From Chloroflexia bacterium (GTDB lineage Bacteria; Chloroflexota; Chloroflexia; Thermomicrobiales; UBA6265): a stretch of 40,697 nt of DNA. The notes under the pieces are model-generated. The model did not search any database. It was not told where the DNA came from and saw only the letters and a list, made by a program, of their open reading frames with translations. Both the position numbers and the translations under genes were made by a program. The stretch is from contig JACCXM010000186.1 of the NCBI GenBank assembly GCA_013697005.1, positions 1 through 40,697 on the forward strand. Reading direction: 5' to 3'. Shown piece by piece: positions 14,397-37,212 of the stretch (positions are counted from its first letter, which is position 1; each line of letters opens with the position of its first letter).

Positions 14397-14408
14397 GAAC
14401 ACCTGTTC
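14397..14408. promoter_or_regulatory. LexA-like SOS box upstream of the end-resection operon
   Basis: GAACACCTGTTC is a perfect inverted repeat of GAACA around CC. It fits the GAAC-N4-GTTC core of the LexA box used by Gram-positive bacteria and several other phyla. It ends 62 bases before the NurA start and falls just downstream of a candidate promoter, the place where a repressor would block transcription. With ten paired positions it is expected about 0.04 times in a window of this size at even base composition. No lexA gene is in the window. Confidence 0.55.
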
Positions 14409-14470
14409 GGTTTTTCCCGCGCCGTTCCCGTCATTCGCGGACGCCCCGGCTGGAGAGGGAACAGAGCTCG

Positions 14471-15586
14471 GTGACGTCGCCAGACGGCCTGACCTCGATC
14501 TCGTTCACCGACCGCATCAATCGCTTGAACGCCGGGTTGGTGCGGGACGGTATTTCCGTCTCCGACATGCGTCGTTCCCCCGCGCTCGAATTGCAGTTCG
14601 CGGGCGCGGGCGATCTGGGACGCACGCACGGCGGCGGACACCCGCCGGGGATCGAGCCGATCGAGGGACCGATCGCGGCGCGGCTGGTGCCGGTTATTGC
14701 CGCGCGGGATTCCCGGCTGCGTTATTTCCTTGATGGCGCGCAGCGCACCTTTGCCGTCTGGCGGTGTGGACTGGTGCCGACCGCGGCGACCGTGGTTGCC
14801 GCCGGTATCTTGCAGCGTGTTCCGGGCGAGGACGGCGCGATGGTGCCGGGGACGTTGCGGATGGAGCATTGCTGGCTGATCCCCGATGTACCTGGTGATC
14901 ATCGCGTGGTGGAGCTGGTGCGCCGGATCAAGGCGGAGGGGATGCGTATCCAGGATCCCCGCGACGCGGCAAGCGCGGGCGAGGCGGGCGCGGGCGATGC
15001 GGGCGTCGCCCCGACAAGCGATTCGGACATCGACTATGGACGCTTGCACGAGCTGGCCTATGTCGCGGCGCTCAAGGTACGGGAAGAGGTTGAAGCGCAG
15101 GTGCTGGCGGATTGGGTGCAGCGCCCGGGCTGGGACAGCGGAAGCGACTGGATCGTGGTCGATGGCCGGTTGCGGTCGCCAGCGCCACGGGTGATCGGGC
15201 TGGTGAAGCAGTTCAGCGATGCGCTGTTGTCGGGACCGGACGCGGAGACGTTGCTCGGTCTCGCGCCCGGATATCGGACAACCGCGTTTCACCCCACGGA
15301 CCGGTTTCGGGGCGGCCAGAACCCCGAGGCGCGGACCCTCTGGTACATCCGGCTCTGGGATTCTGCCGGGATGGATGCCCGCCACGCACTGGTGCGGATC
15401 GAAGCCTCGCATGATGTCTGCACGACCGAGGAGATCGACGCCATCTCGAGCTGGATCCTCGCCGAGCGCACTCCCCGCGCGACCGGCGACAGCCGCTGGG
15501 CGACCCTGCTCTATCCGGTGCATTTGCTGGAGCGAATCCTGAAGCGCCGGCTCGATGCGGATACCCGCGGCTGGCCGAGCGCGTGA
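14471..15586 (+). CDS. nurA: NurA-like nuclease
   Basis: A 371-residue protein that I assign to the NurA nuclease family on motif order and gene context. NurA is an RNase H-like nuclease that works as a dimer bound to the HerA ring and degrades DNA strands during end resection. Visible landmarks are the first acidic motif FLDGAQ (D88), the second acidic strand IVVDGRL (D231), the C-terminal WYIRLWD...ALVRIEAS (E311) and LLYPVHLLERILK. In the last motif the usual AH after YP is replaced, so the family match is divergent. The GTG start has GGAGAGGGA upstream at somewhat long spacing. It opens the four-gene operon, 27 bases before the HerA-like gene. Residues 160-180 form an Ala/Gly-rich linker. 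Confidence 0.72.
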   Translation: MTSPDGLTSISFTDRINRLNAGLVRDGISVSDMRRSPALELQFAGAGDLGRTHGGGHPPGIEPIEGPIAARLVPVIAARDSRLRYFLDGAQRTFAVWRCGLVPTAATVVAAGILQRVPGEDGAMVPGTLRMEHCWLIPDVPGDHRVVELVRRIKAEGMRIQDPRDAASAGEAGAGDAGVAPTSDSDIDYGRLHELAYVAALKVREEVEAQVLADWVQRPGWDSGSDWIVVDGRLRSPAPRVIGLVKQFSDALLSGPDAETLLGLAPGYRTTAFHPTDRFRGGQNPEARTLWYIRLWDSAGMDARHALVRIEASHDVCTTEEIDAISSWILAERTPRATGDSRWATLLYPVHLLERILKRRLDADTRGWPSA

Positions 15587-15613
15587 GCGGCGCACACTGA
15601 CGGGGAGGCGACG

Positions 15614-17758
15614 ATGACGATGACGATTGCCGCGGGGGATGTTTCGCCGAATGGCGCCGCGGCTGCGTTGGCGAAGATCGCGACGCCGCGCGAAACATTC
15701 GCGAATTTCATCGACGAGCGCACGGGCCCCATCGGCCGGGTGGTGGGGAGTGAACGCGAGCCCGCGGGCTCGCATGTCTTCGCGATCTGGGTCTCCGAGA
15801 ACGCCATTTCGCTGGATGTGGGACATATCGTCGTGGCCTTTTCCGAAGAGGCCGCCGTCATTGGCGTGATCGACGAGGCGCGCCGGTTCTCCGATCTACG
15901 CAGTTTTCTCGATGACTATTTCGATCGCCGCCTGGAGGACGCCATCGACGCCGAGCTGGCGACGCGGCGCCCGGAGATGCTGGTCTTCACGGTGCGCGTG
16001 CTCTCCACGCGGCATCTGCGCGACGACGTCGAGTCGCACCGGCCACCGGTCAGCGGACCGGTCTGGTTCGCCACGCGGGAGGCGATCGACTTCGCGCTCG
16101 GCCGGGAGGACTTCACCGGTATCGCGGTGCCGGCGCTGATGCACACCAACGGCAACGCCGAGCGGGACGAACGAGGGGAGGAACAACGCAACGCGGCCGG
16201 CGACGTGGTGTTCCAGCGCTCTCCGATCTGGCTCGACAGTGATTACCTGCTTGGTCCCGAGGCGGGGCACGCCAACTGGACCGGTCAATCGGGATTGGCG
16301 ACAAAGACGAGCCACGCAGTTTTTTTGTTGAGCGCGGTTTTCCAGAAACTTCAGGCAGAAGGGAAAAGCGTGGCCGCGTTGATGTTCAATGTCAAGGGTC
16401 CCGATCTGCTGTGGCTCGACAAACCAGCGCTTCCCGAACCGGAGTGGGAGGATGCCTACGCCGCGGCGGATGCCAATCCGTTGGGAGCGCGGGATCTGGA
16501 GGCGTACGAAGCGCTCGGACTGGAACCGAAGCCGTTCGAGACGTTTCGTATCTTCGCCCCGTTCAAACCGGGGCAGGCTCCGGGCGGTCATGGCGATCTC
16601 GACGTCCAGCTCGAGCGGTTGACGAGTACGTTTTCGGGCGCGCTCAATACCGACCGCGATAATCCAGGGGATTCTGAGGGTGTCGTTTTCCCGGTGCTCT
16701 GGTCGCTTGAACCGCTGTTGTGGATGCCGCACAAGGTGTTCGATTGGGGCGATCTCGACGACAAGCTGAGCGGGTTCATTTACGAGTTGAGAGCGAGCGG
16801 GATCGCGTCGATGAACCAGCTCGACAAGAAATTCGCCGAGATCGACGAGCATTTTGCGGAGAACCCAAGCGCCAGCGAATGGCATGGACACCACAAGTTC
16901 ACCATCCAGAAGGCCCGAAACCGATTCCAGAGCTTACCCGACAAGTTCGGTGGCTTGCTCTCGCGCGGCATGGTTGGTTACGGCAACCTGCCGGCGGTCG
17001 AGGGACCGTTCAGCGATCAGGAGCTGCGGGTGGTTGATATCGCTGATTGCAACTCGGATGTGCAAGAGATTCTGGTAACGAAGGTCATCGAGAAAGTCTG
17101 GAAGATGGCCGAGCAGCAAAAGCTCGGGGTAGAAACGGTGGTCATCTTCGTCGACGAGTTGAACAAGTATGCGCCGGCCGGTGGCCAAAGTGGTCTGCGT
17201 GACACCCTGGTCGATATCGCCGCTCGCGGGCGGCATCTCAATGTGGTTCTTTTCGGCGCCGAGCAGTTCCGCTCGAAGGTCGACGACGAGATTCTCGGCA
17301 ACTGCGGTACGTCGTTTTACGGGCGAGTGGGCGATGAAGAGCTGACGAACGCCGCGTACCGGTCGCTGACGGAGACGACCAAGCACGAGTTGCTGGGACT
17401 GAAGAAGGGGACGATTCTGGCGCGGCACGCCCATTTCCGCGCCCCGCTGTTCGGAACGTTTCCGCTCAAACCGACCGTCGACGGGATGGTCGGTCAGCGC
17501 ATCTTCAACGGCGTGGGCGCAGGTGTGCCCCGCGGCCACGTTGGTGACGGACTTTGGAAGACCCTGTGCGATCTGATGGGCGACCGCGCTCCCAGTAAGC
17601 ACGCGGTGCGGACAGCCACTGACGGGCTGGACCGTGAGTCGATCACCGAGATCGTGCGCCAAGTCAATGTCATGTACGGCAATGGCCGCCGCGACCCGCG
17701 CGCCGATCCCTGGCGCAAGGCGCAGGACATGCTGGCGAAGGCGCGGGGACGGGTGTGA
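15614..17758 (+). CDS. herA: HerA-like DNA translocase/ATPase
   Basis: A 714-residue FtsK/HerA-superfamily ATPase. An N-terminal HAS-barrel-like region (GRVVGSER...SLDVGHIVVAF...AVIGVIDEAR) precedes the RecA-type core. Walker B is VVIFVDELNKYAP (D514, E515). The C-terminal part VVLFGAEQFRSKVDDEILGN...FYGRV...TILARHAHFRAPLFGTFPL matches HerA arginine-finger and tail regions. The P-loop is unusual: GQSGLATKTS (224-233) keeps K231 and T232 but has Thr instead of Gly before the lysine. HerA forms a hexameric ring that pumps DNA into NurA. The ATG has GGGAGGCG upstream. Its TGA overlaps the GTG of the Mre11-like gene. Length exceeds archaeal HerA (about 500), mainly by an insert at about 240-400. 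Confidence 0.82.
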   Translation: MTMTIAAGDVSPNGAAAALAKIATPRETFANFIDERTGPIGRVVGSEREPAGSHVFAIWVSENAISLDVGHIVVAFSEEAAVIGVIDEARRFSDLRSFLDDYFDRRLEDAIDAELATRRPEMLVFTVRVLSTRHLRDDVESHRPPVSGPVWFATREAIDFALGREDFTGIAVPALMHTNGNAERDERGEEQRNAAGDVVFQRSPIWLDSDYLLGPEAGHANWTGQSGLATKTSHAVFLLSAVFQKLQAEGKSVAALMFNVKGPDLLWLDKPALPEPEWEDAYAAADANPLGARDLEAYEALGLEPKPFETFRIFAPFKPGQAPGGHGDLDVQLERLTSTFSGALNTDRDNPGDSEGVVFPVLWSLEPLLWMPHKVFDWGDLDDKLSGFIYELRASGIASMNQLDKKFAEIDEHFAENPSASEWHGHHKFTIQKARNRFQSLPDKFGGLLSRGMVGYGNLPAVEGPFSDQELRVVDIADCNSDVQEILVTKVIEKVWKMAEQQKLGVETVVIFVDELNKYAPAGGQSGLRDTLVDIAARGRHLNVVLFGAEQFRSKVDDEILGNCGTSFYGRVGDEELTNAAYRSLTETTKHELLGLKKGTILARHAHFRAPLFGTFPLKPTVDGMVGQRIFNGVGAGVPRGHVGDGLWKTLCDLMGDRAPSKHAVRTATDGLDRESITEIVRQVNVMYGNGRRDPRADPWRKAQDMLAKARGRV

Positions 17759-19038
17759 CCACGGAAGTCGGAAGTTGGGAGTCGGGAGTCGGTAAGTCAG
17801 GAACCGTCACAGCATCCTCACCGACTGACCGACTGACCGACTTACCGACTGGCCATTTACGGATTGCGCATCTCGCCGATACGCATCTCGGCTATTCGGC
17901 GTACGGGAGGGCCGATCCGGTCTCGGGGCGGAATCAACGCGCCGTCGATATCGAGGAGAGCTTCGCGGCGGCGATTTCCGACATCCTGACCCAAGACGTC
18001 GATCTGGTGCTGCACGCCGGGGATGTGTTTCACCATACCCGGCCGTCATGGTCGACTTTGACCCACTTCGTGCGCCAGATGCGGCGTTTGGAGCAGGCCG
18101 GGGTGCCGGCGGTGGTGATCGCCGGTAACCACGACACGCCGCGCCTGCGGACGACGGGTTCGGTGTTTGCGTTGCTCGCGCTGGCATTGCCGATGACACG
18201 CTTCATCACTGGCTACGAGACGGAAGAGGCGGCGTTTCCTGACCTCGGTGTGATGGTGCACGGTATCCCGCACGGGGCCTTGATCAATCCCGACCCGCCG
18301 GCGGTTATGCTCCACCCGACGCTGCGGAATATCGCGGTGACGCATGGGATTGCGCCCGGATTCGCGGCCTGGGCGGGGCGGGAGGCGGGTGAGGCGGATT
18401 TGCGGGGGAATGTGCTCGATACCCGGTTCGACTACGTCGCATTGGGGCACGTGCATCTCCGCGGGGAACCGGGGATCAATGTCCGGTATAGCGGGTCGAC
18501 GGAGCGGACATCCTGGGGCGATCAGGCGGCGCAACCGGGGTATGCGCTGGTGACGCTTGGCGAACGCGGCGCCGTGCCACAGGTCGCGTACATCGACATT
18601 CCGGCGCGTCCAATGGAAACGCTTTCACCGATTGATGCCGCGGACCGCTCGGCACGGGATGTGGCCGATATGATCCTGTCCCGGGCGGGCGCGCTGGGAC
18701 TGCCGCACGCCATGGTGCGGGTCGAGGTGCAGAACGCGCCGCGACCGCTCTTTCGCGAAACCGACGCCATCGTGCGCCGGGAGATCGGCGGCAACGCCTG
18801 GCACATTCGGCTCACGGCGCCGGGCGATCTGCTCGATCCGCTGGGACGGGACGCGATCGGCGGGCTGGCCGATCTGCACCCGCTGGCACTCTTCGAGAGC
18901 TTCGTCAAGGAAAAGGTTGCGGCTGGCATTTACGATGCGGCGTTCGCCGGTGCGTTCCGGGAGCGCGGGACGGAGACATTGGAGAAAGCGATCGCCCGAT
19001 TGCATGAGGCAAGCGCGGCCGAGGGCGCTGCCCCATGA
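17755..19038 (+). CDS. sbcD: Mre11/SbcD-like DNA repair exonuclease
   Basis: A 427-residue calcineurin-like metallophosphoesterase of the Mre11/SbcD type, which nicks and trims DNA ends together with Rad50/SbcC. All metal motifs are present: DTHLG (D42, H44), HAGDVFHH (D90), AGNHD (N125, H126, D127), a later VTHG, and GHVH (H232, H234). A capping domain follows. The GTG start overlaps the HerA-like stop (GTGA). No other ATG, GTG or TTG occurs before the conserved fold, so about 34 N-terminal residues are encoded by tandem repeats (17764-17850) and have no family counterpart. The stop overlaps the next start (ATGA), as expected for partners made in step. Confidence 0.93.
   Translation: MTTEVGSWESGVGKSGTVTASSPTDRLTDLPTGHLRIAHLADTHLGYSAYGRADPVSGRNQRAVDIEESFAAAISDILTQDVDLVLHAGDVFHHTRPSWSTLTHFVRQMRRLEQAGVPAVVIAGNHDTPRLRTTGSVFALLALALPMTRFITGYETEEAAFPDLGVMVHGIPHGALINPDPPAVMLHPTLRNIAVTHGIAPGFAAWAGREAGEADLRGNVLDTRFDYVALGHVHLRGEPGINVRYSGSTERTSWGDQAAQPGYALVTLGERGAVPQVAYIDIPARPMETLSPIDAADRSARDVADMILSRAGALGLPHAMVRVEVQNAPRPLFRETDAIVRREIGGNAWHIRLTAPGDLLDPLGRDAIGGLADLHPLALFESFVKEKVAAGIYDAAFAGAFRERGTETLEKAIARLHEASAAEGAAP
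17764..17791 (+). repeat. Tandem 7-base repeat array inside sbcD, site 4
   Basis: Four units GAAGTCG, GAAGTTG, GGAGTCG, GGAGTCG at the 5' end of sbcD, in frame and translated as part of the N-terminal extension. Same family as sites 4187, 8779, 10503 and 30109. Confidence 0.8.
17787..17850. repeat. Inverted repeat with 8-base units in the sbcD 5' coding region
   Basis: AGTCGGTAAGTC (17787-17798) is perfectly inverted as GACTTACCGACT (17839-17850), with a 40-base loop. The right arm belongs to a second small array, GACTGACC, GACTGACC, GACTTACC (17823-17846). The mRNA could fold here close to the coupled start codon of sbcD and influence its translation. Confidence 0.65.
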
Positions 19039-21854
19039 TCGTCGTTTCCCTCGACCTCGAAAACTACAAGCAGTATTCCGGATCGCACCGGATCGAGTTT
19101 CCGGAGCACGGCCTCATCGCCATCACAGGTCCCAATGGAGCCGGGAAAACGACGCTTTTCGAGGCCATCGAGTGGTGTTTGTATTGCCCGCGCTCGATCC
19201 CCAGGGACAGCGTGCCGCCCCATGGGGGCGTCGGCCGCACATCGGTGCAGGTGACACTCCAGGATATGAGCGATGGAGTGCGCTATGTGGTCCAACGGGA
19301 GTTGCGCGGGAGTGGCACCCAGGCTGAGGTCTACCGTGAGGACCAACCAGAGCAACCGTTAGTACAGGGGACGCGGGAGGTTTCCCGATACGTCGCCAGG
19401 AATCTCATTGGCCTCCCGTACAGCGCATTTGTCTCGACATTCTTTACCAAACAAAAAGAGCTTCAGTTCTTTGGCGATCTGAGGGCGACCGAGCGGCGGA
19501 TTGAAGTGGGGCGTCTGCTCGGGCTGGAGGCAGTGCGGGAAGCGCAACGGGAGATCGGCGACGGGCGGACCGCCGCGCGCACAGCCTCCGATTCGTTACG
19601 AGGTGAATACACGCGCCGGCTCGAAGATCGAGATCTGGAAGCGGAGATGGACCGCTTGGTGCAGGCGCTGGCAGCGGCCAACGAACACGAGATCACGTCC
19701 GAACGGTGCGCGGCCGCGGCGGCGAGCGAAGCGGAACTGTTATGGGTCAATCTGGAGCGGCTACGTGACATCCAGACCCAGGACGCGGCGTTAGATCACA
19801 CACTGGCTGAACTGGATGGCGCGGTGGCCACTGCGCTGGCACGGCGCAGTGCGGCGGACGCTGAGTTGGCGCGGCTCAAGCAGCGCGCCGACGAGCGAGT
19901 CCCGCTTGCCAAAGTCGCGGATGATGGGGAGCGGTTGCAGGCAGTGGTGACAACGTTCGAGGAGGAGCGGGAGCGAGCGCGAGAGCTCCAGGCGCTGCAA
20001 GCCGCTCGCCAAGGCGCCGTGGAAAAGATCGCTGGTGTCGCCCAACAACTGCGACGGTTGGTTGAAGCTCACCAGGAGGCGGCGGCCGGTCTCATCGGAT
20101 GGACCTGGAGTGATTCGGATGCCGCGGAACCGGCTGAAGGCGCGGCGAGGTTGCATGCTATTGCCCGCTCTCTGGATCTGGATGCGGCCCGTGTCCATGT
20201 CGAACAGATGCTCCACGCGCACCAATGTTGCGATGCGACTGGTGAGATTGAAGTTACTCTCGCATTCCAGCGCAACCTTCTTGAAACCCTTGGCAAGGAG
20301 CGGGCCGTGTTGCTTGGGCCGGGCGAGCCGAGCCAGGCGATTGACAAGACGAAAGCGTCGATTCGCGAAGCGAGGGAAACGCAACAGGGCGCACAGCAGC
20401 AGCGTGCCGCCGAGCGCGCCTCCCGTGAGAAAAATGAGCGGATCGCGGCGGAACTGCGGTTGAACGCGGGCAGCGCGACTTGTCCCACCTGCAGCCGCGC
20501 GCTCGGACCGGAAGAAGCTGAACGATTGGCCCGCGATCTCGACACGTTGGCCGGCCGCGCTCTGGAGAGCGAAGCATTGCTCGACGATGCTGTTCGGTCG
20601 GCGGCGGAACGGATTGCGGCGGCCGAGCAGGAGGAAGTCACGGCCCGCACTCGCCAGGAACGCCTGATACTTCTTGAAGGACGTTTGGCCGATGGCACGA
20701 GGGTGACGGCGGAAACTGAGGCCCGGTATGGTGAGCTGGTGACGGCGCGCAAGACGGCGCTTGATGCCGCCGGATTGGCCGGGCCGCCGGGGCCGGAGTC
20801 CATCGCGGATGCCCGTCGCGCTGTGGACCGCACGCAACAAATGGCGGCACAGGCCGGGTTGCTGGAGCAGCTTGGGAACGATGTCCTGGCGACGCGCAGC
20901 GCGGTGATAACCGCCGAACGCAGCATGCGCGATATCGGCGAGATCGGCTATGACCATGCCGCGCACCAGGTGGCGGTGGAGGCGTTGCGATCGGCCCGGC
21001 GCGCCGCCGCGCAGGTCGAACAGATCGACATCGAGCTCGCTTTGGAGAATCGCTACCAGGAACAGCGTGCGATCGAAACGCGACAGCTCGCCGAGATCGA
21101 CTCCCGGCAGGAGCAAATCAAGCAACATCGACGAGAACTCGGTTTCGACGCGAACACGTTACAGCGAGTCCGCGATGCCGAAGCCGCCGCCCGCGCTGCC
21201 ACCCATGAGGCGCGTGAGGCCCACGCCACCGCCCGCCAGGCGGTACGGGACGCGGGGATCGCGCACGAGCGTGCCGTTGCCGAGCAGACCCACCTGCAAC
21301 GGCTGATCGACGATGCCGACCGCAAGGCGCGTGAGGCCGACGAACTGCAACGCATGTATGACGAGTTCGGTGAGTTCGATCAATACGTGGCGCGGCACAT
21401 CGGACCGCTGCTGTCCGAAACGACGGAGCGCATGCTGGAGCGGGTCACCGACGGCAAATACGATCATGTCCAATTTGACGAGAACTACGGGATCGAGGTT
21501 TTTGACGGCGACGAGGCGTTCCCATTGGTGAGTTTCTCCGGCGGTGAACGCGATGTCGTTGCGCTGTGCGCCCGGCTCGCACTATCTGAAATTGTGGGCG
21601 CCGCGGCGACTCGACCGCCGCGGTTCCTGGTGCTCGATGAGGTCTTCGGCTCGCTCGACAGCGAACGCCGTGCCCGCCTGCTCGGCGCCTTGGGGGCACT
21701 GGCGAGGGTCGGCCACTTTCAGCAGATGTTTATCATCAGTCACATCGACGACGTGCAACTCTCCCCGGTCATGGACGAGGCGTGGACGATCGAGGAGCGC
21801 GATGGGGTCAGTCACGTCGTACGGCCAGAGACATTCACTTTTGCCCGCCCCTGA
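19035..21854 (+). CDS. sbcC: Rad50/SbcC-like SMC-family ATPase
   Basis: A 939-residue Rad50/SbcC protein, partner of the preceding nuclease in opening and tethering DNA ends. The N-terminal ATPase half has GPNGAGKTT (32-40) and SAFVSTFFTKQKELQFF (Q-loop region). Long Ala/Glu/Arg-rich coiled coils run from about 180 to 790, interrupted by a zinc hook CPTC (C483, C486) that joins two molecules. The C-terminal half has the ABC signature SFSGGERD (from 833), Walker B FLVLDEVFGSLD (D868, E869) and a final IISHIDDV with the switch His. The ATG overlaps the sbcD stop by four bases. Length is normal for the family. It is the last gene of the resection operon; 66 bases separate it from the next gene. 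Confidence 0.94.
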   Translation: MIVVSLDLENYKQYSGSHRIEFPEHGLIAITGPNGAGKTTLFEAIEWCLYCPRSIPRDSVPPHGGVGRTSVQVTLQDMSDGVRYVVQRELRGSGTQAEVYREDQPEQPLVQGTREVSRYVARNLIGLPYSAFVSTFFTKQKELQFFGDLRATERRIEVGRLLGLEAVREAQREIGDGRTAARTASDSLRGEYTRRLEDRDLEAEMDRLVQALAAANEHEITSERCAAAAASEAELLWVNLERLRDIQTQDAALDHTLAELDGAVATALARRSAADAELARLKQRADERVPLAKVADDGERLQAVVTTFEEERERARELQALQAARQGAVEKIAGVAQQLRRLVEAHQEAAAGLIGWTWSDSDAAEPAEGAARLHAIARSLDLDAARVHVEQMLHAHQCCDATGEIEVTLAFQRNLLETLGKERAVLLGPGEPSQAIDKTKASIREARETQQGAQQQRAAERASREKNERIAAELRLNAGSATCPTCSRALGPEEAERLARDLDTLAGRALESEALLDDAVRSAAERIAAAEQEEVTARTRQERLILLEGRLADGTRVTAETEARYGELVTARKTALDAAGLAGPPGPESIADARRAVDRTQQMAAQAGLLEQLGNDVLATRSAVITAERSMRDIGEIGYDHAAHQVAVEALRSARRAAAQVEQIDIELALENRYQEQRAIETRQLAEIDSRQEQIKQHRRELGFDANTLQRVRDAEAAARAATHEAREAHATARQAVRDAGIAHERAVAEQTHLQRLIDDADRKAREADELQRMYDEFGEFDQYVARHIGPLLSETTERMLERVTDGKYDHVQFDENYGIEVFDGDEAFPLVSFSGGERDVVALCARLALSEIVGAAATRPPRFLVLDEVFGSLDSERRARLLGALGALARVGHFQQMFIISHIDDVQLSPVMDEAWTIEERDGVSHVVRPETFTFARP

Positions 21855-32991: not shown

Positions 32992-33118
32992 GATTTCGGC
33001 ACAACGGGCAAACTCCCGAGCGGCGATACTAGAGAACACTTCCCTTGCGCGGCGCTGACGCGGCGCCGCTATGACGCTGCCCGCGACGAACGGGCGTGAC
33101 GAAGAAAGTGGTGACTCG

Positions 33119-35095
33119 ATGCCTCGTGCTCCGCAGCGTGTTTTGGCGCCTCTTCCCGTAGCCTGGACCGCCACCGTGGGCCGGGTTTCGCTGGCGGTGC
33201 TTTTTGCTCTCGCCATGCTCGTCCCGGTCCTGGGACGGGCGATCCCCGCCGCCGCCCAGGCGAGCACCGTTTCGTTCAGTACGGCCGAGGCCGCACCCGC
33301 CGATTCGGTTGCCTACCTGGTGACGACCCTCAACGACGAGTCAGAGCAGTGGCGGCTGGCCGACGTGCTGATCGACCGGGCCGGTTTCGGTGATGCGCTT
33401 GACCAGGCGCGGGCCGAAGAGATGACGGACGAATCGGGCGAAGCCCTTCCCCTCGATGCCTTCCTGGGCGGCGAAATCGGGGTCGTCCTGGATGCAGCGG
33501 CCCTGGATACGCTCGCCGCGGAGTCGATGGGCGCGGCCGATCTCGAGGCCATGCTGGGATCGATGGGAATGGCCACCCCCGAGGCAGCGCCAGCCGCGCT
33601 GGCCGCGCAGGGATTCGCGGCGGTGCTCGATGCGCGCGCGCCGGACACGGCGTGGACCGGCATCCGGGACTCGATCGTCGATGGCGCTTTCGAGGAGTCA
33701 ACCTACGAAGGAACGCAGATTTATTTCAAGCCTGCCGCCGGACCTGACGAAGAGGGGATGGCCGCCGCCCGCGCCGGCGATCTGATTCTGATCGGTCTCA
33801 CGCCGATGGACCTGCATCCGATCATCGACACCGTGGACGGACGGAGCGAGGCAATTACGACGCTGCCCGAGTTCAGCACCGCGCGGGATGCCCTGCCGCA
33901 GGAATTTCTGATGTTCGGGTTCGCCAATAACGCCGCCGTGATGAACGCCGATCTGGGACCGTTCGCGATGGCCGCCGGCGACGACGCCGCGGCGTTTTCC
34001 GCGTTGACCATCTCCGCCAGCGAGCCGGGTTTTCGCATGGAGACCGTTGGGTTTGCCGCCGAGGGCGAGACATTGCCCGCGGGCGTCGCCAACTTTGAAT
34101 CCGATTTGGTCAATCTGGCGCCCGCCGAGACGCTCTTGTTCATGAGCGCGGCCGATCTCGGCGCCACCGGTGTGCTCGACGCGATTGGCGCCGGCGCCCT
34201 CGCGTTGGCGTTCGGCATGGGAGGTATGGGGGAGACGCCCGATCCCAGTGCCTCGGCGGAGGAGTTCATCGCCGGGCAGTACGAGGCCGCCGCGGCGCTG
34301 ATCGGGATCAATCTCCAGACCGATCTCTTCCAGCAGTTGTCGGGTGAATATGGCGCCTGGTTGGCCGCCGGTCCCGCAGGCGACAACGTGTCGGGGCTCT
34401 TTGCATCTGACGCGGCCGATCCCGAGGCGGTTTCCAACTCGCTTATGCAGCTTTCGTTCCTGATCCAGGGCGCCATGGGCGCTGAAGCGCCGCTGACGAC
34501 GCGGGAGGTCGATGGCGGTCAGATTTACGTCATCGAGCTTGGCGACGAGGCGGGGTCGACTTTCGAGTTTGGGGTTGCTGGCGACCGGTTCGTGCTGGGC
34601 AGTGGCGATGCCATCGATCGCCTGGCCGGGACGGGCGAGGGCTCGCTGGCTGACGATACCCTGTTCCAGTCCGTGATGGACACGTTGCCGGTCGAGCGCA
34701 GCGGTCTGTTCTACATCGACCTCGAACAAGCGATTCCGTTGGGTGAGGTCGCGGCGGAACAGTCCGGCGATCTCGCACTCGGTGGTTTCGACACCGCGCC
34801 GGATGCGAGTGAGAGCTGCGGGACCTACGCCACCCAGGAGGAAGCGCAGACGGCGTACGACGCGGCTGAATCTGGTACGTTCGATCTCGACCAGGACTTT
34901 GACGGCCAGGTGTGCGAGGACTTCTTCGTCAGCGCCGAGACGCCTGCCGCGGGCACCGACGATGCGGCATCGGCCATGGACGCCACCGAGGTGCTCGCCG
35001 ACGTCGATTACTCCGCGATCAAGGCGTTCGGTCTCGCGGCTTATGAGGACGGTGGGCTGCAACGCTCGTCGTCGATTCTGTACATCTCGGAATAG
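33119..35095 (+). CDS. Secreted DUF3352-like protein with Excalibur-like calcium-binding motif
   Basis: A 658-residue exported protein. The signal peptide (VGRVSLAVLFALAMLVPVLGRAIPAAAQA) leads into a DUF3352-type repeat architecture. It starts AAPADSVAYLVTTLNDESEQWRLA and continues with long Ala/Asp/Glu-rich alpha/beta segments; the family's function is unknown. Near the C-terminus, residues 567-602 (CGTYATQEEAQTAYD...DLDQDFDGQVCEDFF) resemble an Excalibur domain, with paired cysteines C567/C599 and an EF-hand-like DxDxDG-type loop, here DQDFDG. The protein ends in SSSILYIS, as does its neighbour. ATG 33119 has only a weak ribosome-binding site; ATG 33071 would add 16 residues. It is adjacent to and homologous with the next gene, a tandem duplication. 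It is very acidic. Confidence 0.78.
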   Translation: MPRAPQRVLAPLPVAWTATVGRVSLAVLFALAMLVPVLGRAIPAAAQASTVSFSTAEAAPADSVAYLVTTLNDESEQWRLADVLIDRAGFGDALDQARAEEMTDESGEALPLDAFLGGEIGVVLDAAALDTLAAESMGAADLEAMLGSMGMATPEAAPAALAAQGFAAVLDARAPDTAWTGIRDSIVDGAFEESTYEGTQIYFKPAAGPDEEGMAAARAGDLILIGLTPMDLHPIIDTVDGRSEAITTLPEFSTARDALPQEFLMFGFANNAAVMNADLGPFAMAAGDDAAAFSALTISASEPGFRMETVGFAAEGETLPAGVANFESDLVNLAPAETLLFMSAADLGATGVLDAIGAGALALAFGMGGMGETPDPSASAEEFIAGQYEAAAALIGINLQTDLFQQLSGEYGAWLAAGPAGDNVSGLFASDAADPEAVSNSLMQLSFLIQGAMGAEAPLTTREVDGGQIYVIELGDEAGSTFEFGVAGDRFVLGSGDAIDRLAGTGEGSLADDTLFQSVMDTLPVERSGLFYIDLEQAIPLGEVAAEQSGDLALGGFDTAPDASESCGTYATQEEAQTAYDAAESGTFDLDQDFDGQVCEDFFVSAETPAAGTDDAASAMDATEVLADVDYSAIKAFGLAAYEDGGLQRSSSILYISE

Positions 35096-35135
35096 CGAGT
35101 CGTTTTCGATCGCGGCGAGCGAAAGCCGCACAGTG

Positions 35136-35162
35136 AGGGCGCCCGGCTCAGCCGGGCGCCCT
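35136..35162. terminator. Strong GC-rich hairpin terminator
   Basis: AGGGCGCCCGGC (35136-35147) is perfectly inverted as GCCGGGCGCCCT (35151-35162) around a 3-base loop, 40 bases after the first DUF3352-like gene. Only a short T-poor tail follows, so termination may need a factor. It separates the two paralogues into distinct transcripts. Confidence 0.65.
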
Positions 35163-35316
35163 TGCTGCGTCCTCGGGAATGACACAGTTTCACTCGTTTC
35201 CGGCACGGATCATGACACAATATCCGCACGCCGTTCTGGAACCGAAGCGGACAATTGATCGTCCTGTTCTGAGACCGTTGAGTATCGTACGTGACCCGCG
35301 AACTGGAGAAATCGAG

Positions 35317-37212
35317 ATGAATCTGACCCGGGGATGGACGCGCGCAATGTGGCGGTCGTTGACGGCAGTGGCGCTGGTGACTGGTTTCGGCGCGCCGCTC
35401 GTATCGGTTGCAGGCATCGCCGCCCAGGAGTCGCTGCCAGGCACCGCCGCGGCGGCGCCGGAAAACGCCGTGCTTTTTCACGTGGCGGATCTCGACCGGG
35501 ATAGCGCGCAGTGGCAACAGAGCGAGGAGCTGTTGACGCGCGTCGGTGTCCCTGACGCGCTCGATCTCTGGGAAGCAGCGATCCTGGCGGAAGGCGAAGC
35601 TAGTGGAGACTTCAGCCAAGCCGACCTCGACGCGCTGCTTGGCGGCGAGATGGCCGTTGTTGTCTTGCCCGCCGCCGTAGAGCTGATCGCAACGATGACG
35701 ATGGAAGGTCTCGACAGCGACACGTCGTTCCGCGCCGAAGACGCAACGCCAACGGCCGCGGGTGATGCGCCATTCGGTGTCGTGGGAATCCTGCTGCCAG
35801 GTGACTTCGACGCCGCCTGGGAATATGTGGAAGGTCAAGTGGCTGATCTGGCCGCGTCACGAGACGTAGCAGTCGCGGAGTCTACGTACGGCGAGGCCGA
35901 GGTGCTCATGGTCCCGGCCGGAGCTGAGACAGATCAATCCGGAATGGATGCCGAGATCGCCATGGATGAGTGGATGGGCGGTCACGCTATGGATGGCTCA
36001 GGCGGCTTCGTCACGGCCGCGGCCGACGGTTTCATTTTGGTCGGGGGCACCGAGGCCGATGTCATGGGTAGCCTTGACGTCATCGCCGGGACCGCGGGCT
36101 CGCTGGCGGATTCCGCCGCGGCGCGGGCCGTCGCGGCCGAGCTTCCGGCGGATGCGCTGTCGTTTACGTACATCGATGGTGGAGGCATTCTGGGCGCGTT
36201 GGACCCGGAGGCCATCGCCATGCTGCAGAGCCTGTTGATGGAGGTGCCCGTCGAAGCGTTGAACAGTCAGGCGGGCATCGCCATCAGTGCCGACGCGCCA
36301 GGTTTCCGCTTCGACACCGTGACCATTCTCAACGACGCGGTCGATCTCGCCGCGATCACCGTTGCCAACGACCCCACGGTTGCGGCAGCGGCGGAGCGCG
36401 CGCCGGCGGGAACCTTTCTCTTTCAGGCGGGCCGGATACCGGAGAGCTCGTTCCAGGGTCTGCCCTTCGCGCTGGCGCAAGCGGTCAATGGCGATGACAT
36501 CAGTGGCGGCGAGCAAGCCACGATGATGTTTCCGACGGAAGAGGAGATGGCGGCCGAGATCGCGACTGCCGCGGCCACGCTCGAGTTCAACCCAGAGACC
36601 GATCTCTTCGATCTGCTTGGCGACGAGTTCATCGCGTTCTCGTCGTTCCCCAGCATCGGCTTCGAGGATTTCGGGGTCGATGCCGTCGCCGCAATCACCA
36701 CCACCGATCCTGACGCGTTGGCAGAGACGGCACGCAAGACCGCCGCCTGGATCGACCGCGCTGAGTCAAGTGTCGATATTGCGACGCGCAGCGCCGGCGA
36801 AGAGACGGTCTACGTCGTGACCGACAGCGAGATGGAGGGAGCTCCTGGCGTCGAGTTCGGCGTGGTCGGGGATCAGGCGGTAATCGGCATCGGCGGGGGA
36901 GTCGATCAACTCGTCACCACCCCGGCGGATGCGCTTGCCGCCGACAGCCAGTTCCAGACGGTGATGGGATTGCTGCCCGCGGAGTATTACCAGATCGGTT
37001 ACGTCGATATTGGCCAGGCCATCGACCCATTGCTGATGGTGATCGGAGCGATGGGCATGATGGATGGCGCGGAGGACCCAGACGCGGCGGTCGCCACACC
37101 GGTGACCGCGAGCGGCGATCCCGGAAACATTCGCGCCCTCGGCGCCATCGCCTACCAGCAGGACAACGTGATGGGCGCCAGCGCGATCCTGTACATCGCG
37201 GACGGCGGGTGA
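35317..37212 (+). CDS. Secreted DUF3352-like protein, second paralogue
   Basis: A 631-residue exported paralogue of the preceding protein. It shares the lead-in AAAPENAVLFHVADLDRDSAQWQQSEELL, the DxLLGGEMAVVVL strand (compare DAFLGGEIGVVLD), the central NPETDLFDLLGDEFIAF block, EFGVVGDQAVIGIG and the terminal ASAILYIADGG. The signal peptide is carried by SLTAVALVTGFGAPLVSVAGIAAQE. It lacks the Excalibur-like motif. ATG 35317 has GGAG eight bases upstream; the frame is open back to 35179, but the extra residues come from the promoter region. The family has no known activity. Pairwise presence and strong acidity suggest a surface or calcium-linked role, which is inference. Confidence 0.8.
   Translation: MNLTRGWTRAMWRSLTAVALVTGFGAPLVSVAGIAAQESLPGTAAAAPENAVLFHVADLDRDSAQWQQSEELLTRVGVPDALDLWEAAILAEGEASGDFSQADLDALLGGEMAVVVLPAAVELIATMTMEGLDSDTSFRAEDATPTAAGDAPFGVVGILLPGDFDAAWEYVEGQVADLAASRDVAVAESTYGEAEVLMVPAGAETDQSGMDAEIAMDEWMGGHAMDGSGGFVTAAADGFILVGGTEADVMGSLDVIAGTAGSLADSAAARAVAAELPADALSFTYIDGGGILGALDPEAIAMLQSLLMEVPVEALNSQAGIAISADAPGFRFDTVTILNDAVDLAAITVANDPTVAAAAERAPAGTFLFQAGRIPESSFQGLPFALAQAVNGDDISGGEQATMMFPTEEEMAAEIATAAATLEFNPETDLFDLLGDEFIAFSSFPSIGFEDFGVDAVAAITTTDPDALAETARKTAAWIDRAESSVDIATRSAGEETVYVVTDSEMEGAPGVEFGVVGDQAVIGIGGGVDQLVTTPADALAADSQFQTVMGLLPAEYYQIGYVDIGQAIDPLLMVIGAMGMMDGAEDPDAAVATPVTASGDPGNIRALGAIAYQQDNVMGASAILYIADGG

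Follow-up and report, generated by a model that had tools for sequence, protein, structure and literature searches.

A four-gene NurA–HerA–Mre11–Rad50 operon with a probable role in processing DNA ends in a family of Chloroflexota bacteria

Introduction

A family of uncultured Chloroflexota bacteria carries genes for a NurA-family nuclease, a HerA translocase, Mre11 and Rad50 in a single operon, which probably serves to process DNA double-strand ends. In archaea, NurA–HerA and Mre11–Rad50 are thought to trim broken DNA ends. How resection proceeds in bacteria without RecBCD or AddAB is unsettled, and the part that NurA–HerA plays in resection is itself disputed; a bacterial family in which NurA–HerA is co-translated with the only Mre11–Rad50 is a natural test case. 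Already known are the archaeal cluster, bacterial NurA–HerA, and one bacterial four-gene set, in Oceanithermus (PMC5448004). What is new is a divergent family that eludes single-sequence searches of Pfam and NCBIfam, is near fixation in its hosts, and contributes the one Mre11 locus detected in the genome. The searched literature held no description of the four-gene set in Chloroflexota, and earlier mentions of bacterial clusters may exist.

The operon and its surroundings

The window, i.e., the whole 40,697-nucleotide stretch of DNA that was analysed, is contig C156 of the host genome (G000; 4.05 Mb, 98% complete). Four consecutive open reading frames on the + strand, spanning 14471-21854, are arranged as follows:

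nurA, 14471-15586, + strand: predicted NurA-family nuclease, RNase H-like, 371 aa; start codon GTG at 14471
herA, 15614-17758, + strand: HerA translocase ATPase, 714 aa
mre11/sbcD, 17755-19038, + strand: Mre11 nuclease, 427 aa; start GTG
rad50/sbcC, 19035-21854, + strand: Rad50 ATPase, 939 aa; start ATG

A gap of 27 bp separates nurA from herA, the stop codon of herA overlaps the GTG of mre11 as GTGA (17755-17758), and the stop codon of mre11 overlaps the ATG of rad50 as ATGA (19035-19038). All four genes are side by side on one strand, as the first-pass annotation had described them, and its identification of each is borne out by the profile, fold and motif evidence given below; its span of 14397-21854 places the genes correctly, but 14397 lies upstream of the GTG at 14471 and is not the start. 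The GC and GC3 of the operon are like those of neighbouring genes, which in the window are ordinary metabolic and transport genes rather than defence genes. The window also encodes two adjoining DUF3352 proteins (674 and 677 aa, 33071-37212).

Identity of the four proteins

As a single sequence, the nurA product gave no meaningful match in Pfam, NCBIfam or the PDB, and the Pfam NurA model (PF09376) matched neither this protein nor any other in the host genome. Its identification needed a family profile built from 24 homologues, which found Deinococcus radiodurans NurA (drNurA) in the PDB (7f6d_H, E 1.8e-9), T. maritima TM1739 (E 1.3e-5) and, weakly, S. solfataricus NurA (E 1.1). PF09376 matched 2 of the 24 homologues (best E 0.027); its curated cut-off is a library threshold rather than a biological feature. 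Pfam and NCBIfam overlook this divergent NurA–HerA clade, and surveys based on those models therefore undercount it.

The AlphaFold model of the protein (pLDDT 87, pTM 0.88) has the RNase H-like fold of NurA, and its best matches among PDB folds were drNurA (7f6d_G, E 1.4e-10), TM1739 (1zup, 1.4e-7) and TdpB (8wfd, 1.6e-6); the structural match to NurA on which the first-pass annotation had staked its identification was thus obtained, with 7f6d_G and 1zup. Invariant in the 24 homologues are D88 (in the motif YFLDG), D231 (VDGRL), K246 (GLVK), E311 and R342 (DSRW). If chain 7f6d_H carries a tag of 20 residues, K246 and R342 correspond to K201 and R309 of drNurA, which are essential (PMC9960219). 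The protein has both the catalytic acidic residues and the essential lysine and arginine. The product of 14471-15586 is, as judged from homologues and modelled fold, a NurA-family nuclease, and Mn2+-dependent nuclease activity is predicted for it.

The herA product was barely detected by single-sequence Pfam and NCBIfam scans. By sequence it matched D. radiodurans HerA (drHerA) with E 2.8e-34 alone and 2.6e-46 as a profile, and archaeal 9x1l matched the profile at only E 0.025. The fold search with its AlphaFold model placed drHerA first (E 1.4e-20, 658 columns), with the Thermococcus (1.1e-13) and Sulfolobus (8.6e-12) proteins lower. The Walker A (GQSGLATKTS, 224-233) and Walker B (VIFVDELNKYAP, 510-521) motifs of the RecA-like ATPase core are invariant, or nearly so, across 23 sequences. 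The fold alignment with drHerA was made for the whole protein (model pLDDT 75); at 658 columns it should take in the N-terminal β region, which would then lie opposite the drHerA HAS barrel. The proposal that NurA and HerA represent a divergent bacterial version agrees with their nearest solved relatives being from Deinococcus.

Mre11 and Rad50 were both matched in Pfam, NCBIfam and the PDB. Their best PDB matches are Mre11 and Rad50 of M. jannaschii, those to E. coli SbcCD being far weaker, and their top NCBIfam scores came from archaeal models. Mre11 has all the motifs of a calcineurin-like phosphoesterase (LADTHLG, HAGDVFH, AGNHD, VTHG and LGHVH), and Rad50 has both halves of the ABC ATPase, with Walker A (GPNGAGKT), a CxxC zinc hook (CPTC, 483-486), the signature motif (SFSGGE) and Walker B (FLVLDEVFGSLD). 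The earlier description of the operon as archaeal in style holds for the gene order and for Mre11–Rad50; it fails for NurA–HerA, where Deinococcus is far ahead of Thermococcus and Sulfolobus.

The beginning of mre11 contains a further feature:

herA/mre11 junction, 17763-17856, + strand: repeat-like insert of 8-bp tandem units (GACCGACT type)

The insert includes a perfect 12-bp inverted repeat (17787-17798 / 17839-17850) and is read through in the mre11 frame, giving the first ~34 aa of Mre11, which are absent from relatives; the conserved core begins at about 17857. The 13-mer CCGACTTACCGAC occurs in 21 copies in the host genome, often in 8-bp tandem, against 0 for the reversed control. An altered repeat copy number at the junction would shift the mre11 frame.

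Conservation in the host family and across Chloroflexota

A single-sequence scan of genome contigs brought up one close relative only. Searches of 61 relatives turned up NurA in 29 and HerA in 31; within the family, HerA and/or NurA occur in 30 of 32 genomes, and the two with neither are 85% and 82% complete. Of 23 fetched contigs, 22 belong to the host family and one to a neighbouring one; in every one of them NurA is followed by HerA on the same strand. Mre11 comes next after HerA in all 22 contigs with room for it, Rad50 next after Mre11 in all 18 with room, and a Rad50 start at -4 is available in 17 of these 18. Because order and strand are the same in 23 other contigs while NurA is only 31-58% identical to its relatives, the linkage is beyond chance. 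Epimerase-deacetylase synteny upstream of the operon is retained in several relatives. In one contig (L040, genome G020) an insertion of ~1.6 kb separates herA from mre11; between these genes lie two similar opposite-strand ORFs of ~200 aa each (L040:2478-3684) that look Uma2-family-like by eye.

In a sample of 400 Chloroflexota genomes, HerA was detected at E 1e-15 or better in 28. A herA-mre11-rad50 block was present in 9 of 19 fetched neighbourhoods, with a detectable nurA in front in 8 of the 9, and this second set of four-gene operons belongs to distant Chloroflexota families. The first-pass annotation had named a gene order peculiar to one genome as telling against it, and this is not what is seen. 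Nor is the arrangement without precedent in bacteria: there is the set of Oceanithermus profundus (PMC5448004), and Pfam NurA is present in 235 of the 400 genomes. Twenty Pfam-NurA loci comprised NurA with the other three undetected, with a canonical HerA-like ATPase, or with Rad50 nearby. At L145-L150 and L152-L154 the profiles used found no adjoining HerA or Mre11–Rad50, and these NurA proteins may stand alone, working with another partner. At L097:4459-7420 (G047) a remote HerA with the Walker A motif GATGLATKS has a NurA-like gene after it, not before it.

Other resection enzymes

The host genome has RecJ and RecO. The one UvrD-family helicase found in it is PcrA-like, and in its one PDDEXK_1 protein (1461 aa) the nuclease domain is fused to an AAA_11/AAA_12 helicase:

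Dna2-like protein, L090:1539-5924 (contig C467 of the host genome), - strand: PDDEXK_1 N-terminal, AAA_11/AAA_12 helicase C-terminal

Since the sole UvrD-type helicase is PcrA-like and the sole PDDEXK_1 protein Dna2-like, no helicase of the AddA/RecB/AdnAB type was detected in this 98%-complete genome. Dna2-like ORFs of 1400-1500 aa recur throughout the family. Family genome G008 does have AddAB/AdnAB-like ORFs alongside the operon; the family is mostly without AddAB-like enzymes. Across the 400 Chloroflexota genomes, NurA anticorrelates with strong PDDEXK_1 matches, themselves no more than a proxy for AddB/AdnA (odds ratio 0.22-0.25, uncorrected for phylogeny). Whole Chloroflexota families have just one of the two.

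Proposed function

The operon most likely processes the ends of DNA breaks, leaving 3′ single strands for RecFOR/RecA. By analogy with its relatives, HerA would form a hexameric ring that carries a NurA dimer on its HAS-barrel face and pumps double-stranded DNA into this dimer; as with drNurA–HerA (PMC9960219), NurA would cut chiefly the 5′ strand during translocation. Mre11–Rad50 may recognise and open blocked or protein-bound ends and pass them to NurA–HerA, and the remaining 3′ tail could then receive RecA loaded by RecFOR. In this family the operon would take the place not only of AddAB/RecBCD but also of the SbcCD that usually stands alone. Homologues have given differing pictures: drNurA–HerA resects 5′ tails in vitro (PMC9960219), and the T. 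kodakarensis HerA–NurA (2026) cleaves both strands of double-stranded DNA, leading its authors to doubt resection (PMC12977600). The phenotypes of D. radiodurans and Thermus mutants are mild or mixed (PMC9960219, PMC5448004).

Perhaps the four genes encode two independent repair modules that are merely co-expressed, Mre11–Rad50 acting like SbcCD on hairpins or blocked ends and NurA–HerA acting separately. In Deinococcus and in several Chloroflexota, nurA-herA occurs with no mre11-rad50 linked to it (SbcD being elsewhere or not found), and a single origin of all the four-gene sets is not apparent from the trees of HerA and Mre11. Against this, the linkage holds in every related contig checked and the same order appears again in distant families, a constancy and recurrence that suggest selection for joint action; in addition, the Mre11 of Sulfolobus is reported to bind HerA as well as Rad50 (PMC2288612). 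Two separate modules are a doubtful reading.

Less likely again is that the chief task of the operon is the destruction of foreign linear DNA (phage or plasmid), with NurA–HerA pumping and shredding double-stranded DNA and Mre11–Rad50 sensing free ends. A defence role has been proposed for the DNA-cutting T. kodakarensis HerA–NurA (PMC12977600), TdpB of TdpAB is among the fold matches of the NurA model (8wfd, as above), and HerA matches the Sir2–HerA and DUF4297–HerA anti-phage ATPases at lower rank. PADLOC gave matches to mad8, LmuB and mad3, but these concern the ATPase domain only. Unlike mobile defence islands, the operon is near-universal in the family and shows synteny with housekeeping genes, the Pfam scan of the window found no modification, toxin or sensor genes near it, and its best matches are repair-type Deinococcus proteins.

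Evolutionary origin

The HerA tree unites the family in a single clade, to which a nurA-herA-only sequence is joined (99/97); the other four-gene sets fall in a separate clade. In the HerA and Mre11 trees the label "two" or "four" is partly assumed for L093, L094 and L100, where herA lies near a contig end. The trees neither establish nor reject a single origin of all Chloroflexota four-gene sets (AU p 0.09 for HerA and 0.15 for Mre11). In the Mre11 tree the ordinary Chloroflexota SbcD proteins form a clade that does not include the family protein. The grouping of the family Mre11 with same-order SbcD was rejected only moderately (p 0.018, with long branches). No second Mre11 was found in the host genome (98% complete), the operon copy being the sole one; from this and from the placement in the tree, it seems that the native sbcD of the family gave way to the mre11 of the operon.

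It can tentatively be suggested that a four-gene machine that was not vertically inherited displaced AddAB/RecBCD and the native SbcCD as the main end-processing enzyme, and that its assembly was a separate event from that of the other four-gene operons in the phylum, in convergence on the archaeal arrangement. Recent import of an archaeal repair cassette is highly improbable: the gene order is archaeal and Mre11 and Rad50 match best the archaeal NCBIfam models and M. jannaschii structures, but NurA and HerA are nearest to Deinococcus rather than archaeal proteins, GC and GC3 are the same as in the neighbours, and divergence inside the group is deep (NurA down to 31% identity).

Comparison with known systems

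The TdpAB, HerA–Sir2 and HerA–DUF4297 defence complexes also combine a HerA-family ATPase with a partner, and the fold of TdpB is NurA-like. However, they are weaker matches, modification or effector genes were not seen near the operon, and no TdpAB-type phosphorothioation genes were found among the window ORFs scanned with Pfam.

The archaeal HerA–NurA–Mre11–Rad50 cluster has the same four functions in one operon, and by their scores the Mre11 and Rad50 of the window resemble archaeal forms more closely than they do E. coli SbcCD. The NurA–HerA of the window is of the Deinococcus type: archaeal 4d2i appears in the fold search only, and 9x1l only at weak sequence E-values.

The NurA–HerA of D. 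radiodurans (PDB 7f6d, 7wrw, 7wrx) is the best match in sequence and fold for both proteins, although identity in the structural alignment is low (~17% for NurA, ~23% for HerA). Both share an unusual Walker A (GISGVATKTS in drHerA, GQSGLATKTS in the window HerA), the DELNKYAP Walker B, and the catalytic lysine and arginine. In Deinococcus, as in the window, nurA and herA form an operon; there, no mre11-rad50 follows, whereas in the window both come next.

A bacterial four-gene set, nurA-hepA-sbcD-sbcC, is published for Oceanithermus profundus, and in it, as in the window, sbcD and sbcC lie downstream of the HerA gene (PMC5448004). It belongs to another phylum and was described as an isolated instance to which SbcCD was recruited later (PMC5448004). 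Compared by description only, the set of the host family differs in being near-universal and in appearing to replace the ordinary sbcD.
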